Positions 42,790-48,682 of a stretch of DNA of 64,000 nucleotides are shown here, in pieces. The stretch is from positions 1,550,001-1,614,000 of the forward strand of contig NZ_CP097160.1 in NCBI RefSeq assembly GCF_023370115.1. Direction: 5' to 3'. The translations under genes and the position numbers were made by a program. The notes beneath the pieces are model-generated. The model was not told the origin of the DNA. It saw only the letters and a list, made by a program, of their open reading frames with translations, and did not search any database. Every line of letters begins with the position of its first letter. Position 1 is the first letter of the stretch. The stretch is from Gulosibacter sediminis (lineage in GTDB: Bacteria > Actinomycetota > Actinomycetes > Actinomycetales > Microbacteriaceae).

Positions 42790-43898
42790 TATTCGACCAT
42801 CCCGCTCGCGAGGGACCATTCGGCGTAGAAGATCGCGAGACCAGCGACCGCGAACAGTCCCGCGACGATCCAGAACCGCACGACGACGGTCTGCTCGGCC
42901 CAGCCCTTGAGCTCGTAGTGGTGATGGATGGGGCTCATGAGGAAGATGCGCTTGCCGCCAGTGACCTTGAAGTAGAGGCGCTGCACGATGACCGAGCCGG
43001 TGTCGATGACGAAGAGGCCGCCGATGATGACGAGCAGGAGCTCGGTGCGGGTGATGATTGCGAATGCGGCGAGCGCGCCGCCAAGGGCGAGCGAGCCGGT
43101 GTCACCCATGAAGAGCTTCGCTGGCGAGGTGTTCCACCAGAGGAAGCCGATGAGGGCGCCGACGATGGCTGCCGCGACGATCGTCATGTCGAGCGGCGCG
43201 TAGACCTCGTAACAGGCGCCCGCGACCTGGTTCGAGAGGCGGTCGCTGCCGCAGAGCTGGTTGAACTGCCAGTAACCGATGATGCCGTAGGTGCCGATCG
43301 CGCAGATCGACGCCCCCGTCGCGAGGCCGTCGAGGCCGTCGGTGACGTTGACGGCGTTCGAGGCGGAGGTCGTGATCGCGACGATCCAGATGACGACGAG
43401 GATCGTGCCCGCGACAACGCCGAGCGCCATGAAGTCGATGCCGGTGTCGCGAATCACCGACACCTCGCTCGAGATGAGCGGCACGCCAAGTTCGTTCGTG
43501 ACCTGCAGGCCGATGAGGGCGAACAGCGCCGCGACGATGACCTGACCGGCGATCTTCTGCCAACCACCGAGGCCGAGCGACTGGTGCTTGCGCACCTTGA
43601 GGAAGTCGTCGATGAAGCCGACGAGCCCGTGGCCGACCATCATGAACAGCACGAGCAGGCCCGCGGCCGTCGGCTGAGTCTGGGTGACGAGCACCGCGAA
43701 GAAGTACGCCACTACGGTGGCGAGCACGAAGACGATGCCGCCCATAGTCGGGGTGCCGCGCTTCGCGTAGTGCTCCTTCGGACCATCCTCGCGAACGTAC
43801 TGACCCCAACGAAGCTTGTTGAAGAGCCGGATGAACACCGGCGTCAGCGTCAGCGTGAACAGCATCCCGACCGCGCCGGCGATGAGGATTGCAATCAC
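42789..43898 (-). CDS. mraY: Phospho-MurNAc-pentapeptide transferase
   Basis: Transfers the phospho-MurNAc-peptide to undecaprenyl phosphate, giving lipid I. It has 369 aa with ten helices, MGGIVFVLA near the N terminus, the Mg-binding [21 protein letters not shown] and [10 protein letters not shown]. The start overlaps the stop of murF by 4 nt and the stop overlaps murD by 1 nt, so the three are translated as a coupled block. Confidence 0.97.
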
Positions 43899-45313
43899 GA
43901 GGTACGTCCCTTCACGTAATCTCCGAGTCGGTCAGCGAGCTTCATGAGCCCTGCGGAATTGGATGACTTCACCAGCACGAGGTCGCCGTCACGCAATTCA
44001 CTCGTCAGTAGTTCGTACGCGGCGTCGGCATCTTCGGTAAACGACGCCTCATTATTCCAGCTTCCCTGCGCGATCGCGGCGAGGTAGAGCGGCCTGGCGT
44101 CACGCCCGACTACAACGATTCGGTCAATATTGAGTCGCACCGCGAGTTCGCCGAGCTTGTCGTGCTCGGCCACGGCGTATTCGCCGAGCTCCGACATCGG
44201 CCCGAGCACCGCGACGGTGCGCTGCCCCTCGGCGGCGATTTGCGCGAGCGTGCGCAAGGCGGCCGACATCGAGTTCGGGTTCGCGTTGTAGGCGTCGTTG
44301 ATCACCGTGAGCGGCTCGCGCGTGAGCACCTCCATGCGCCCGCGCTCGGCCCGCGTCACCTCGCGCAGCACCGAGGCAACTTCGGCGGCCGACACGCCCT
44401 CGACGTGCGCGGCGGCGGCCGCGGCGAGGGCGTTCATGACGTGGTGTTCGCCGATGACCGGGAAGTGAATCTCCTCGGGTTCCTCCCCCGGCGCGCGCAG
44501 CGTGAAGCGGGTGCCGTCGCCGGCAACGCTCACGCCGTCGGCGTGCACCTCGGCGTTCGAGCCGCGGCCAAACCAGACCACGCGGCCGGGCGCCTTCGCG
44601 GCCATGCGAGCGACGCGCGGGTCGTCGGCGTTGAGCACGGCGACCCCGTCGGCGCCGAGCGCCTCGATCATCTCCGACTTCGCCAGTTCGACGTTGTCGA
44701 TGCCACCAAATTCGCCCGCGTGCGCGAGGCCCACCATGAGCACGATGCCCACGTCGGGCCGTGCCATCTTCGCGAGCCGTTTGATGTGGCCGATGCCGCT
44801 CGCGCCCATCTCGGCGACGAGCCAGTCGGTCTCTTCGGTCACCTGGAGGAAAGTGGTGGGCGCGCCGACCTCGTTGTTGAACGAGCCGATCGGCGCGACC
44901 ACGTTTCCGCGGCGCGCGAAGATCTCGCGCAATAGGTTCTTCGTCGTCGTCTTGCCATTCGAGCCCGTGACCGCGACGACGCGCAGGCGGCCGAGGGCGC
45001 GCACTCGCGCGACCACCTCGGTGGCCAGCGCCCCGAGCGCGAGCACCGTGTCGGCCACGACGACCTGCGGCACGTCGAGGTCGAGCTCGCGTTCGACGAT
45101 GAGCAGGGCCGCGCCGTTCTCGACGGCCGCGGGGGCAAACAGGTGGCCGTCGGTCACCTCGCCCGGCTTCGCAAAGAAGATGTCACCGGGCGTGATCTTG
45201 CGCGAATCGGTGTCACTGAGGCCGCGCACGGTCGTCGCCTCGGTCGCGTCGCCGCGCAGCACCAGCGTGCCGGAGGTCGCGGCCGCGATTTCCGCGAGGG
45301 TCATTGCAATCAT
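43895..45313 (-). CDS. murF: UDP-MurNAc-tripeptide-D-Ala-D-Ala ligase
   Basis: Adds D-Ala-D-Ala to the tripeptide precursor. It has 472 aa, with [14 protein letters not shown], the Mur core segment [11 protein letters not shown] and a normal C-terminal domain. ATG 45313 has AAAGG at good spacing; a second ATG three codons later is possible. Key residues are intact, so the cluster must be supplied with a tripeptide substrate despite the unusual MurE beside it. The 56-nt gap to murE has no hairpin. Confidence 0.96.
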
Positions 45314-45369: not shown

Positions 45370-46833
45370 CTACCAGCCGGCGTCGGCGAGCGCGTCGCGC
45401 ACGAGCTCGACGGTCGGGTCGACCACCTCGCCCTCGTCGAGCTCGCGGAGCGCGTCGGCGCGGGGCTCGACGAACAGGATGCGCCCGCCGCGGCCCGCGT
45501 CACGCGACGCATGCTGGAGCGCGGCCGCCGCATCCGCCGCAAGCCGGAGCCCGGGCGCGCCGTCGATCGTCGCGTCGGTAACGACGATGGGTTTCTTGGC
45601 GGTGAGCTCACGCAGCTGCGCGAAGCGCTCGATCGCGGCGGCGCCGCTCGGGTGCACGACGAGGTGCGGCGCGTCGCCGCCCGCCTCGCTGAGGGCCTGG
45701 AGCGAGCCGCGAATCGCCTCGGGGCGCTCGTCGACGTCGACGAACACCTCTGGGCCGTCTCCCCCGGCGCACACTCGCTCAAGTCGGCCGGGAATTGGCA
45801 CGTCGAAGCCGCCGGTGCGGTCGAGCGCGTCCTGAATCTGCTCGGTGGCCCAGCCACCCTCGGCGATCATGACGATGGCCGCGGCCGCGTTGACGGCCGC
45901 AAGGCGCCCGGGCTTAGTGATGCGGCTCGTGACGACGCGGTCGTCGTGGCCGCGCACCGTGAACTCGGTGCCGCCGTCGACACTGCGCCACTCGACCCGC
46001 CAGTCGGCGCCTGATTCGGGCTCGGCGCTGAGCGTTGCGACCGGGATGCGCGCGGCCTCGACGAGGTCGCGGCCCACCAGGCTGTCGACGTTGATGACCC
46101 CGGTCGAGGCGACCTCGGGGTCGAGCAGCTGTCGGTGCAGCTCGAAGAAATCCGCGGCCTCCGCGTCGGTACCGGTAAAGGTGAAGGGCCCAACCACGGC
46201 AAACTCGAGGCCCGCGAGGCGCTGCCCGCTCAGTGCGTGACCCGAGATCTCGATGGCGGCGACGCGGTCGGCGACCTCGCGCATTCGCGCCACGAGGGCA
46301 TGCAGGTCGTCGGCCTCGGGGGTCGTGAGCGTGGCGATGACGCGCTGCTCGTCGACGCGGCGGGCGATCGACGTCGACAGGCCGCTGGCGACACCGATGC
46401 GGCCGAAAAGGTCGGCAACCAGGTAGCTCACGCTCGTCTTGCCGATCGTGCCGGCGACGCCAAAGAGCCGCGGCTCCTCGGGGTCGGTGCGGTACACCCA
46501 CTTCGCGACATGCCCGAGGGCGAGCCGCGGCTCGTCGATGACGATGACGGGCACGTCGAGCTCGGCCGCCCGTTCGGCGCCCAGCGGATCTGTCAGCACC
46601 GCCACAACTCCGGCCTCGACCACCTCGTCGAGGAACTCCGCGCCGTGCGTGCGCTCGCCCGGAATGGCGACGAAGACGTCGCCCGCCTCAACGCTGCGGT
46701 GATCGCTGCTGACGCCCGTCACCTCGATGGCCTCAAGATCGAATCCTTCGGGTTCATTAAGCCCGAACTCGGCGCACATCTCGGAAAGAATGCGCGCCGC
46801 GGCATGGTGGGGGCGAATACTGTCTGTGGGCAA
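45370..46833 (-). CDS. murE: MurE-type Mur ligase with degenerate active site
   Basis: In the dcw position of MurE, which normally adds the third amino acid to UDP-MurNAc-L-Ala-D-Glu. From TTG 46833 (AGGAAG upstream; ATG 46779 is the alternative) it has 487 aa. MurE-like segments remain: VAIPGERTHGAEFL, GLSTS, TLTTPEADDLHALVARM, IEISGHAL, PGRLAAVNAAAA. Usual key residues do not: the ATP loop reads GTIGKT with Ile130 in place of Asn; the metal motif DHLD-H and the following carbamylated lysine are replaced by TGTDAEAADFFELHRQLL; YAHKPD reads DVDERPE; GGDRD and DNPR are not found. The frame is intact, so it is probably expressed. It may be a pseudoenzyme, or a ligase with a changed mechanism or amino acid; a second MurE elsewhere is possible. 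Confidence 0.85.
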   Translation of the reverse strand: MPTDSIRPHHAAARILSEMCAEFGLNEPEGFDLEAIEVTGVSSDHRSVEAGDVFVAIPGERTHGAEFLDEVVEAGVVAVLTDPLGAERAAELDVPVIVIDEPRLALGHVAKWVYRTDPEEPRLFGVAGTIGKTSVSYLVADLFGRIGVASGLSTSIARRVDEQRVIATLTTPEADDLHALVARMREVADRVAAIEISGHALSGQRLAGLEFAVVGPFTFTGTDAEAADFFELHRQLLDPEVASTGVINVDSLVGRDLVEAARIPVATLSAEPESGADWRVEWRSVDGGTEFTVRGHDDRVVTSRITKPGRLAAVNAAAAIVMIAEGGWATEQIQDALDRTGGFDVPIPGRLERVCAGGDGPEVFVDVDERPEAIRGSLQALSEAGGDAPHLVVHPSGAAAIERFAQLRELTAKKPIVVTDATIDGAPGLRLAADAAAALQHASRDAGRGGRILFVEPRADALRELDEGEVVDPTVELVRDALADAGW

Positions 46834-46846
46834 GGTCTTCCTGCTG

Positions 46847-48634
46847 CTAGTGGACGATATTGATGTCGGGGTACGGCTGCGGCGACGGCGAGACGTTGTT
46901 CGACGACAGCACGTACGACATGGTCGACTGCCATGCGGGCGCAGTGGCAGCGCTGGTAGTGATGGTAGTCGGGTCGGCCAGCGTGACCAGCACCACGTAC
47001 TGCGGATCATCCATTGGGGCTACCCCGGCCATCGACACGTTGTTCGAACCCACGATGTAGGTGCCGGTGTCGGCGTCGACACGTTCCGAGGTACCGGTCT
47101 TGATGCCGACGCGATAGCCGGGGACCTCGACCTGGTCGGCGAGCCAGCCCTCGCGGGCCACCGATTCCATGCCCTCGAGCGCGAGCTCCGCGGCCTCCGC
47201 CGACACGACCTGCGTCGGCATGGTGTCGGGCTGGTCAGTCACCGTGCCGTCCTCCTGCGTGCAGCCGAGCACGAGCTGGAGCGGGATGTGCGAGCCACCA
47301 TTCGCGAGGGCCTGGTAGGCGCTCGCCATCTGGGCGACCGTCGCGGTGAGGCCGTGGCCGAACGTCGTCGCGTAGTTCGTTTGCGGGTCCCACTCCTCGG
47401 CGGGGCGCACAATGCCCGACTCCTCGCCGAGGAAGTTCACGCCGGTCTGCTCGTTGAGCCCGTAGCTGAGCAGGTAGTCGTGCCGGGCCTCCGGCGACAG
47501 ACGGTCGGCGAACGTGGCCGTGCCGACGTTCGACGACTCGGTGAGCACCCCGTTCATGTTCATTTCGACGGGATCGTGCGGCGAATCGTCACCGAACTCG
47601 GCACCCTTTTGGTCCCACGTGTCAGGCACCGTGATCGTCTCGTCGGGGTCGACAAGGCCCTGGTCGTAGAGCATCGAGGCCGTGATCGGTTTCATGATCG
47701 AGCCCGGCTCGTACGGCGCCGTGAACGTTCTCGCGCCGCGGTCGTCGGTATCACTCTCGCCCGGCGAATTGGGATCGACCGTCGGGTACTCGGCCGCCGC
47801 CACGAGCTGGCCCGTCTTCACGTTGACGACCGTGATGGTGCCGTAGAGCGCGTTGGTCTTTTCGACCTGCTCGGCGATGATCTGCTGCGTGCGCCACTGG
47901 GTGTCGCTGTCGATGCTGAGCTTGAGCGTGCCGCCCTGCACGGGGTCGCTCAGCGTGACAACCGAGCCGGGAATCGCGACGCCATCGGCCGAGCGTTCGA
48001 AGCTCTCCTCGCCGTTCTGCCCCGCCAGGCACTGGTCGTACTGCAACTCGAGCCCGGCCAGCGGTGTGCCATCCGAGCCCACGAAGCCCGTGAGGTTTCC
48101 GGCGACCGCGCCGTTCGGGTAGGTGCGCTCGGGGTGCCGCTCGAAGTACACCCAGGGAATGCCGAGGTCGCGCACCGCCTGGTACTGCTCGAGCGTGACC
48201 CCCTGCGCGAGGTAGCCGAAGGCCGCTTCGGGGTTCGCCGCGAGCACGGCATCCACGGACGACGCGAGGTCGGAGGCGTCCTGGTCGGTCAGCTCGGCGA
48301 TCTTCTCGAGCGACTCTTCCACCGTCACGTCGACGTACTTGTTCGTTTCGGGGTCGAGCCGCTTGAAGTCGCGCATGTTCACGGGGGCCAGGGTGATATC
48401 GAATCGGTCGACGCTCGAAGCGAGCATGGTGCCGTTCGCGTCGGTGATCGAGCCGCGCGTGCCGTAGAGCGTCGAGGTCTGCCCGCGTCGACCGTCGGCC
48501 TCGGCGTTGATCGCGTTCGCGTCGATGACCTGCAGGCTCACGAGCCGCCCCGCAAACACGATCACGACGAGCGCGATCACTACGAGTACGGGAGTCGCAC
48601 GACTGCCCGTTCGACGCCGACGCGTCTTGGCCAT
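46847..48634 (-). CDS. ftsI: Septal penicillin-binding protein FtsI (class B PBP)
   Basis: D,D-transpeptidase that crosslinks septal peptidoglycan together with FtsW. It has 595 aa: short cytoplasmic arginine-rich part, one membrane helix (VLVVIALVVIVFAGRLV), PBP dimerisation domain from about residue 50, then the transpeptidase domain with SxxK (EPGSIMKPI), SxN (ESSNVG) and KTG (GIKTGTSE). ATG 48634 gives the normal N terminus; the frame is open to 48679. The stop is 13 nt before the murE TTG. Confidence 0.95.
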   Translation of the reverse strand: MAKTRRRRTGSRATPVLVVIALVVIVFAGRLVSLQVIDANAINAEADGRRGQTSTLYGTRGSITDANGTMLASSVDRFDITLAPVNMRDFKRLDPETNKYVDVTVEESLEKIAELTDQDASDLASSVDAVLAANPEAAFGYLAQGVTLEQYQAVRDLGIPWVYFERHPERTYPNGAVAGNLTGFVGSDGTPLAGLELQYDQCLAGQNGEESFERSADGVAIPGSVVTLSDPVQGGTLKLSIDSDTQWRTQQIIAEQVEKTNALYGTITVVNVKTGQLVAAAEYPTVDPNSPGESDTDDRGARTFTAPYEPGSIMKPITASMLYDQGLVDPDETITVPDTWDQKGAEFGDDSPHDPVEMNMNGVLTESSNVGTATFADRLSPEARHDYLLSYGLNEQTGVNFLGEESGIVRPAEEWDPQTNYATTFGHGLTATVAQMASAYQALANGGSHIPLQLVLGCTQEDGTVTDQPDTMPTQVVSAEAAELALEGMESVAREGWLADQVEVPGYRVGIKTGTSERVDADTGTYIVGSNNVSMAGVAPMDDPQYVVLVTLADPTTITTSAATAPAWQSTMSYVLSSNNVSPSPQPYPDINIVH

Positions 48635-48682
48635 CCGTACGCTCCTTCCACGCGGTGGGCCAGCGGCCCGCGGCCGCACTGG

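Follow-up and report, generated by a model that had tools for sequence, protein, structure and literature searches.

A probably catalytically dead MurE under purifying selection in the dcw cluster of Gulosibacter, accompanied by a second MurE with complete motifs

The window analysed here is a stretch of 64,000 nucleotides (G000:C1:1550001-1614000) from the genome of Gulosibacter ACHW.36C, which consists of one contig of 2,748,452 bp; the dcw cluster lies on the minus strand of this window. The murE gene of the cluster occupies positions 45370 to 46833 (minus strand), with a TTG start codon at 46833 and a stop codon at 45370-45372, and encodes a protein of 487 aa. Upstream, a 13-nt gap separates it from ftsI (46847 to 48679, minus strand), and downstream murF (43895 to 45313, minus strand) follows after 56 nt, in agreement with a preliminary description of the gene as in frame, of normal length and placed between ftsI and murF. 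The longer open reading frame that contains murE extends back into ftsI; the start is nevertheless well placed, because the two closest relatives have ATG at the same codon. The murE-murF gap is 56 nt in G. sediminis and 52 nt in G. faecalis, and the junction is +3 or -4 nt in the seven other Gulosibacter genomes measured outside this close kin.

The protein is confidently predicted to adopt the three-domain Mur ligase fold (pLDDT = 87.8, pTM = 0.89), and the nearest solved structure to the model is MurE of Mycobacterium tuberculosis, the first nine matches all being mycobacterial MurE. With the first two boundaries set by us, domain 1 comprises aa 1-120 (46474 to 46833, minus strand) and the central domain aa 121-340 (45814 to 46473, minus strand), followed by a degenerate C-terminal domain, aa 341-487 (45373 to 45813, minus strand). 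The window protein resembles UDP-MurNAc-tripeptide synthetase (MurE; TIGR01085; M. tuberculosis 2wtz and 2xja) in sequence, in fold and in the place of its gene between ftsI and murF, and its clade keeps the GKT of the P-loop and the UDP-MurNAc-peptide positions. It differs from MurE in lacking the carbamylated lysine and the DHLD, GGDRD and DNPR motifs, and the C-terminal domain of proteins of this type is degenerate or absent. Its score against TIGR01085 is 157.7 bits, below the family cut-off of 257.3, whereas the second MurE of the same genome (hereafter E2) scores 369.4; no match to the Pfam domain Mur_ligase_C was found in the window protein.

Catalytic residues were compared with 75 intact dcw MurE sequences (74 named loci and that of G010) and ten E2 sequences, and with a wider set of 84 intact dcw and 16 E2 sequences. 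The wider set includes some mutually duplicate Pseudoclavibacter rows and leaves out L209 (a duplicate), L226 (a third copy in G094) and L218 (partial), while the narrower set leaves out the partial L102. The preliminary description had listed the loss of the P-loop Asn, of DHLD with its following lysine, and of the YAHKPD-, GGDRD- and DNPR-type blocks, and all of these are borne out. The NLSHDHLDDY block is deleted or replaced at aa 218-223 (46165 to 46182, minus strand) in alignments with intact dcw MurE and E2, although DHLD or DHFD is present in 84/84 intact dcw sequences and DHLD in 16/16 E2. At the position of the carbamylated lysine, present in all 84 intact dcw and all 16 E2 sequences, the window protein has His233 (codon at 46135 to 46137, minus strand; equivalent to M. 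tuberculosis Lys262 by alignment). Both the lysine and DHLD/DHFD are absent from all eight complete degenerate copies described below (0/8 in each case). Moreover, the DYGHxP block reads DVDERPE, having lost GH, and GADGDRD, the K and R after it, and DxNPR/DxHPR are gone. The P-loop, GTIGKT (aa 128-133; 46435 to 46452, minus strand), still satisfies the pattern GxxGK[ST], with Ile130 in place of the Asn found in 84/84 intact dcw sequences. Since the M. tuberculosis enzyme has Ser at this position in the alignment, the Ile is unusual but no proof of death, and it is the missing lysine and histidine, rather than the P-loop Asn, that provide the strong evidence.

Poor sequence does not account for these losses, as the preliminary description had held: the dcw murE of G. 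sediminis (89% identical) shows the same ones, and the ACHW.36C genome is a 128x hybrid assembly according to the available part of its source (PMC12243537). The further claim that MurC, MurD and MurF of the cluster keep all equivalent residues holds for the motifs that were checked, namely the P-loops of all three (GAHGKT, GTNGKT and GSNGKT, respectively) and DHLD in MurD and MurC. We also considered whether the catalytic motifs might be preserved at shifted positions, which would have refuted the loss, and found none in full alignments of 36 and 93 sequences.

The statement that the ATP motif is lost turned out to be too strong, as most nucleotide contacts persist: GxxGKT, Glu195 (aligned with M. 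tuberculosis Glu220), Asn315, Arg350 and Asp366 all remain. The position of Asn315 is not universal, with Asn in 75/84 intact dcw sequences and Asp in 16/16 E2. We mapped MurE ligand-contact residues onto the window protein from a list in PMC9434261, a source available in part, and all eight UDP-MurNAc-peptide positions checked are kept (His63-Gly-Ala, Thr170-Thr, Glu173, Ser197 and Arg205). A check of the structure and its ligand sites, as proposed earlier, thus gives a confident fold with the ATP-site and UDP-MurNAc-peptide positions retained by alignment and the amino-acid site lost. The window protein has lost the chemistry of DHLD and the carbamylated lysine together with the amino-acid site, and not the ATP site. 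Judged by these alignments, the dcw MurE of ACHW.36C is almost certainly dead as a MurE, and it fits the description of a pseudoenzyme as a clear homologue of an enzyme family without residues essential for the chemistry.

Six genes with a Mur_ligase_M domain are found in the ACHW.36C genome: murC, murD, murE and murF of the dcw cluster, folC (named from its translation) and E2. The last of these, at G000:C1 909663-911219 and far from the dcw cluster, is the second MurE with GTNGKT and DHLD motifs for which a genome search had been suggested. Its motifs are complete (GTNGKTT, DHLDDY, DYGHTP, GADGDRD and DYNPR), and across 357 positions in the first two domains it is 41% identical to the dcw protein. 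E2 thus differs from the window protein in having the full catalytic set and in lacking the dcw-specific N-terminal residues; it is also a stand-alone gene beside an MFS gene and nrdE, whereas the window murE sits in the dcw cluster. From its motifs, E2 is very likely the working MurE of this genome. Across Gulosibacter, E2 adjoins nrdE, mostly together with MFS transporter and aldo-keto reductase genes (8/9; the G008 contig is too short). The two genomes without E2 (G001 and G010) have the aldo-keto reductase gene and nrdE with neither E2 nor the MFS gene between them, so that the transporter gene next to E2 in most others is also missing there (L077 versus L196 and L197).

Several further observations concern these genes and their relatives. 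The E2 P-loop reads GTDGKT in G004, G005 and G008 (L016, L021 and L024; 3/16 E2), with the other motifs kept. A second nrdE, 67-69% identical, is present in five of the seven Gulosibacter genomes searched (G001, G002, G006, G009 and G010). A third MurE-like gene, E3, occurs in five Gulosibacter genomes (L087-L090 in G006, G009, G005 and G002, and L031 in G008); it is 29-33% identical to the window protein, keeps GTNGKT and DHLELHG, and has GVLGDR instead of GGDRD and TEDDLK instead of DNPR. The E3 gene of G006 adjoins a ClpB-like gene. In Pseudoclavibacter, the third copy L226 of G094 has DHHPR and no DYGH. Three MurE-like genes are found in each of three genomes of another genus, g45 (G054, with L091-L093, G133 and G186).

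Among 11 Gulosibacter genomes, E2 is present in nine, and in all nine it occurs together with a degenerate dcw copy, eight of these copies being complete sequences and that of G008 being split over two contigs. The two E2-less genomes carry a dcw MurE with all motifs (2/2) and only five Mur_ligase_M genes each. The degenerate copy is full-length in ACHW.36C, G. sediminis and G. faecalis, while the C-terminal domain has been lost in six of the nine (G002, G004, G005, G006, G008 and G009). Five of these are unbroken proteins of 361-371 aa (G002, G005, G006, G009 and G004); in each, the start of murF either lies 3 nt beyond the stop of murE or falls within a 4-nt overlap, which shows that the DNA of the C-terminal domain is gone and not merely out of frame. 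The 5' part of the G008 copy has GTRGKT, and its 3' part has Met at the lysine position and ends before the C-terminal domain. The dcw copies of G005 and G008 still end in EAGW, as intact forms do, and that of G004 has lost its P-loop as well (no GKT). The two-domain form of G. chungangensis is likewise predicted to fold with confidence (pLDDT = 88.2, pTM = 0.87). Every dead copy is an open frame at the old place. The eight UDP-MurNAc-peptide positions are all kept in ACHW.36C, G. sediminis and G. faecalis and seven are kept in G. macacae (G005), but G002, G006, G009 and G004 retain just one each, and hence no ligand role can be common to all dead copies.

In the related genus Pseudoclavibacter, both copies were found in seven of ten genomes, each with the P-loop, DHLD, Lys, DYGH, GADGDRD and DYNPR; the Pro after DYGHx is absent from the E2 of these seven. 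Only the dcw type was found in the other three, one of which is an 83% complete genome. The motifs of the dcw copy are kept in 10/10 as far as they can be read, one sequence being cut by a contig end. A second copy alone therefore does not force decay, and the presence of two intact copies is likely both a lasting state and the ancestral one. Among the best 80 of 320 confirmed loci, five are degenerate, all from Gulosibacter, and the other 75 have GTNGKT. A family survey of 80 genomes gave a match in 78, and the 11 weak or odd MurE matches that were inspected all have GTNGKT (11/11). Not every MurE of this survey was read, so other genera could still contain degenerate dcw copies.

A separate pattern was seen among the intact dcw sequences. 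In 26 of 75, the Tyr of DYGH is replaced by Phe, always together with DHHPR (L111, L113-L115, L121, L125, L128, L129, L132, L134, L140, L158 and others), and one further row has Phe with DLNPR. The Phe/DHHPR group includes Homoserinibacter and Homoserinimonas, while Diaminobutyricibacter has DYGH with DFHPR. Phe/DHHPR is a candidate signature of a homoserine-adding MurE, but those members of the group that were read in the MurE tree also form one clade. Nothing of use was found on MurE with homoserine in the literature searched. For Gulosibacter, the accessible part of PMC6113628 gives DAB or D-ornithine in the wall as a statement for the genus, and no species description giving the wall amino acid was found in the literature searched.

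In a MurE tree of 46 rows, the E2 of both genera form one group (94/92, under the limit for a star) and the ten Gulosibacter dcw sequences form another (100/99, starred). The two intact Gulosibacter dcw sequences fall inside the latter, adjoining ACHW.36C, G. sediminis and G. faecalis (97/91, starred), and the dcw copy of G004 sits on a very long branch (2.03). A species tree based on eight dcw neighbours (12 genomes and 3507 columns, with G008 flagged for its letter make-up) agrees on the closest kin of the intact pair (100/100) and places both G009/G002/G006 and G004/G005/G008 more distantly (97/99 and 98/98). If the intact state is ancestral, the species tree calls for no fewer than three losses of catalysis and the gene tree for two. 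By itself, the gene tree does not reject a topology in which the dead copies are forced into one clade (p-AU = 0.062), and the number of independent losses consequently depends on the species tree. It is also possible, though less simple, that catalysis was lost once and that the ancestor of G001 and G010 later had its dcw gene replaced.

The ratio dN/dS could be measured on one pair only, ACHW.36C and G. sediminis, which is diverged enough for counting and is unsaturated. Silent sites are near or at saturation in more distant pairs, and estimates for the truncated copies (G002, G006 and G009) and for G001-G010 are unreliable; a codon with an ambiguous base was left out of murF of G007. For dcw murE, dN/dS is 0.150 (0.099-0.213) with dS = 0.421, a dS like those of seven neighbours (0.313-0.426), and the dN/dS values of these neighbours are 0.012-0.062 and that of E2 is 0.053. 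By likelihood, murE has 0.061 and six neighbours have 0.002-0.030 (murF not among them), and the identity to G. sediminis is 88.7% for dcw murE versus 94.7-99.5% for the neighbours. Along the dcw protein, the three domains have NG86 values of 0.076 (0.026-0.181), 0.109 (0.057-0.184) and 0.306 (0.198-0.520), domain 1 being the most constrained and the C-terminal domain, the equivalent of which is missing in six other Gulosibacter genomes, the least. E2 has the reverse pattern (0.152, 0.028 and 0.018), as expected if E2 does the chemistry. A drifting relic would approach a dN/dS of 1. The dead copy of ACHW.36C is under purifying selection on this one pair and also shows, on the same pair, the further mark of a pseudoenzyme, that it is kept by selection on the protein. 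We consider it likely that the dcw copy is retained for a function at the protein level. Earlier, a pseudoenzyme had been suggested with another MurE supplying the activity, and the intact E2 and the purifying selection support this as far as can be told from sequence.

To see which residues the dead copies keep, we sorted the columns of the first two domains by their conservation in intact dcw sequences (≥ 97%) and in E2 (≤ 5/10), leaving out those that fall in between (80-97% conserved in dcw, or neither above nor below the E2 limits). With 75 dcw and ten E2 sequences, 12/20 dcw-only columns are unchanged in all eight dead copies, as against 16/68 columns shared with E2 and 12/165 variable columns (Fisher p = 0.005 and 8.5e-8, respectively). 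The larger set of 84 dcw and 16 E2 sequences gives 11/22, 15/63 and 12/175 (p = 0.031 and 1.5e-6). The eight dead copies are not independent of each other. Relative to variable columns the retention effect is clear (p = 1.5e-6), and relative to shared ones it is modest (p = 0.03, larger set). The 12 kept dcw-only columns are R7, H10, R14, F23, D52, A105, W112, G147, A179, R183, E186 and V213; in the wider set G147, R183 and E186 leave this class and L106 and G107 enter it. Several of them lie together. The N-terminal stretch RPHH..AR.LSEMCAEF (aa 7-23; 46765 to 46815, minus strand) holds R7, H10, R14 and F23, all kept in 8/8 dead copies; a helix segment (46498 to 46521, minus strand) runs from A105 (6% of E2) to W112, both 8/8; and a helix with A179, R183 and E186 (46276 to 46299, minus strand) is also kept in 8/8. 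The clearest four are H10, R14, F23 and W112, found in 0/16 E2 and in 8/8 dead copies. Against the trend, E176 (0/16 E2) is kept in 4/8 dead copies and H221, beside DHLD, in none of the eight. The old constraints are thus divided between the two genes, with E2 keeping catalysis and the dead copy keeping much of what is special to dcw MurE. Since E2 presumably folds without the dcw-specific residues, they should not be a requirement of the MurE fold itself; with no interface data, their retention could still reflect packing of the fold and not a partner.

We favour, as reasonably probable, the reading that dcw murE encodes a folded but catalytically dead ligase, that the roles of MurE have been split between two genes, and that the dead copy serves in binding or as a scaffold; this role is inferred and the partner is unknown. 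On this view, both MurEs would have been intact in the common ancestor of Gulosibacter and Pseudoclavibacter. Most Gulosibacter lineages would then have come to rely on E2 for adding residue 3 to UDP-MurNAc-dipeptide, so that the dcw copy no longer had to catalyse but was still needed for a second, non-catalytic role. The G. bifidus lineage would instead have lost E2 by deletion, its dcw copy continuing to serve both functions. The two N-terminal domains may act as a docking or scaffold module for the cytoplasmic wall-precursor machinery encoded alongside by murF, murD and murG, with MurF and MurG as first candidate partners, and in the clade of ACHW.36C, G. sediminis and G. faecalis the protein perhaps still holds nucleotide and UDP-MurNAc-dipeptide without ligation. 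That the function of the dead copy is specifically scaffolding or docking is an inference to which we lean only slightly, as there are no partner, expression or phenotype data. Against the preferred reading, the dcw gene evolves faster than its neighbours, and the G004 copy, with its lost P-loop and branch of 2.03, looks like decay.

These same two facts, the extreme divergence of the G004 copy and the faster evolution of the dcw protein, would be expected if the gene were a relic kept open for operon reasons, the translation of murF being coupled to murE, so that selection would remove deletions and frameshifts, and the protein itself being useless and drifting. The close junctions in the seven other genomes and the loss of C-terminal domains in six, with the EAGW end still in place in G005 and G008, would also fit such coupling. 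We nevertheless regard it as unlikely, though not negligible. The dN/dS of domains 1 and 2 (upper 95% limits of 0.18) is far from 1, and the dead copies retain previously conserved columns at a much higher rate than variable columns. Moreover, coupling would be expected to depend mostly on the 3' end, yet this part shows the least constraint, and in the ACHW.36C clade the gap to murF is wide (52-56 nt) and the gene is still constrained.

The dead copy might instead regulate by binding UDP-MurNAc-dipeptide and ATP or ADP, whereby it would buffer, present or sense the precursor or form hetero-oligomers with E2. The complete ligand and ATP-site positions of ACHW.36C, G. sediminis and G. faecalis, and the seven of eight in G. 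macacae, speak for this. Because of the retention of a single position in each of four genomes and the loss of GKT in G004, binding cannot be the common role of all dead copies, and as a general explanation it is rather improbable, though it may hold in the ACHW.36C clade.

The preliminary description had offered a very diverged ligase, as well as a change of selectivity related to B-type peptidoglycan; such a ligase might be active with another amino acid or another acceptor. The complete fold and most ATP contacts are compatible with it, as is the DAB or D-ornithine reported for the genus in the part of PMC6113628 at hand. However, the protein has no carbamylated lysine, no DHLD histidine and no recognisable amino-acid site, all of which E2 possesses, and six relatives lack the C-terminal, amino-acid-binding domain altogether. 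We find neither version supported, since catalytic and not only specificity residues are gone, and an active ligase is very improbable; a change of selectivity for another amino acid does not explain the loss of the carbamylated lysine and DHLD. A sequencing or assembly artefact, for which nothing speaks beyond the oddity of the gene, can practically be discounted: an independent genome whose gene is 89% identical has lost the same motifs, seven others (one with the gene split over contigs) show related losses, and the assembly is a complete hybrid one.

For the preferred reading of a dead ligase kept for a non-catalytic role, the nearest precedent is PAP11 of plant plastids, which is matched by sequence and fold and is a MurE descendant that became a subunit of another complex, the plastid-encoded RNA polymerase. 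PAP11 is not known to act as an enzyme in its plastid complex. It differs as a plant organelle protein of a transcription complex with a long N-terminal extension; the window protein lacks this extension and comes from an organism without the plastid complex, and its gene lies in a bacterial dcw cluster beside active Mur genes. According to the accessible part of PMC9434261, most seed-plant forms of the plastid MurE-like proteins keep DNPR, DNPK is also common, and the change of role of land-plant MurE is termed exaptation. Associations of Mur ligases with one another and with MurG have been reported, and the Bordetella MurE-MurF fusion joins MurE and MurF in one polypeptide that binds MurG, i.e. 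the partners proposed here (both from the available portion of PMC6420597); both ligases are active in the fusion, unlike the window protein. No paper on a Mur ligase pseudoenzyme was found in the open-access literature, which leaves most subscription journals uncovered, and among the matches listed in a wider literature search none concerned one by its title or the start of its abstract.

MurE, an essential enzyme, is also a drug target. It is an open question whether Mur ligases take a structural part in a cytoplasmic wall-building complex, since a knock-out cannot separate catalysis from any structural role when both reside in the same essential protein. For Microbacteriaceae, we see an even chance that dcw MurE has an evolutionarily separable, non-catalytic role in docking precursor enzymes to one another or to the divisome, such that, once the chemistry had shifted to another gene, the active site and often the C-terminal domain would be shed and the docking surface kept. 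If this is true, nature would have carried out a separation-of-function experiment in Gulosibacter, and done so two or three times. As the two roles appear to sit in two genes in these species, the structural role would be directly testable by deleting the dead copy.
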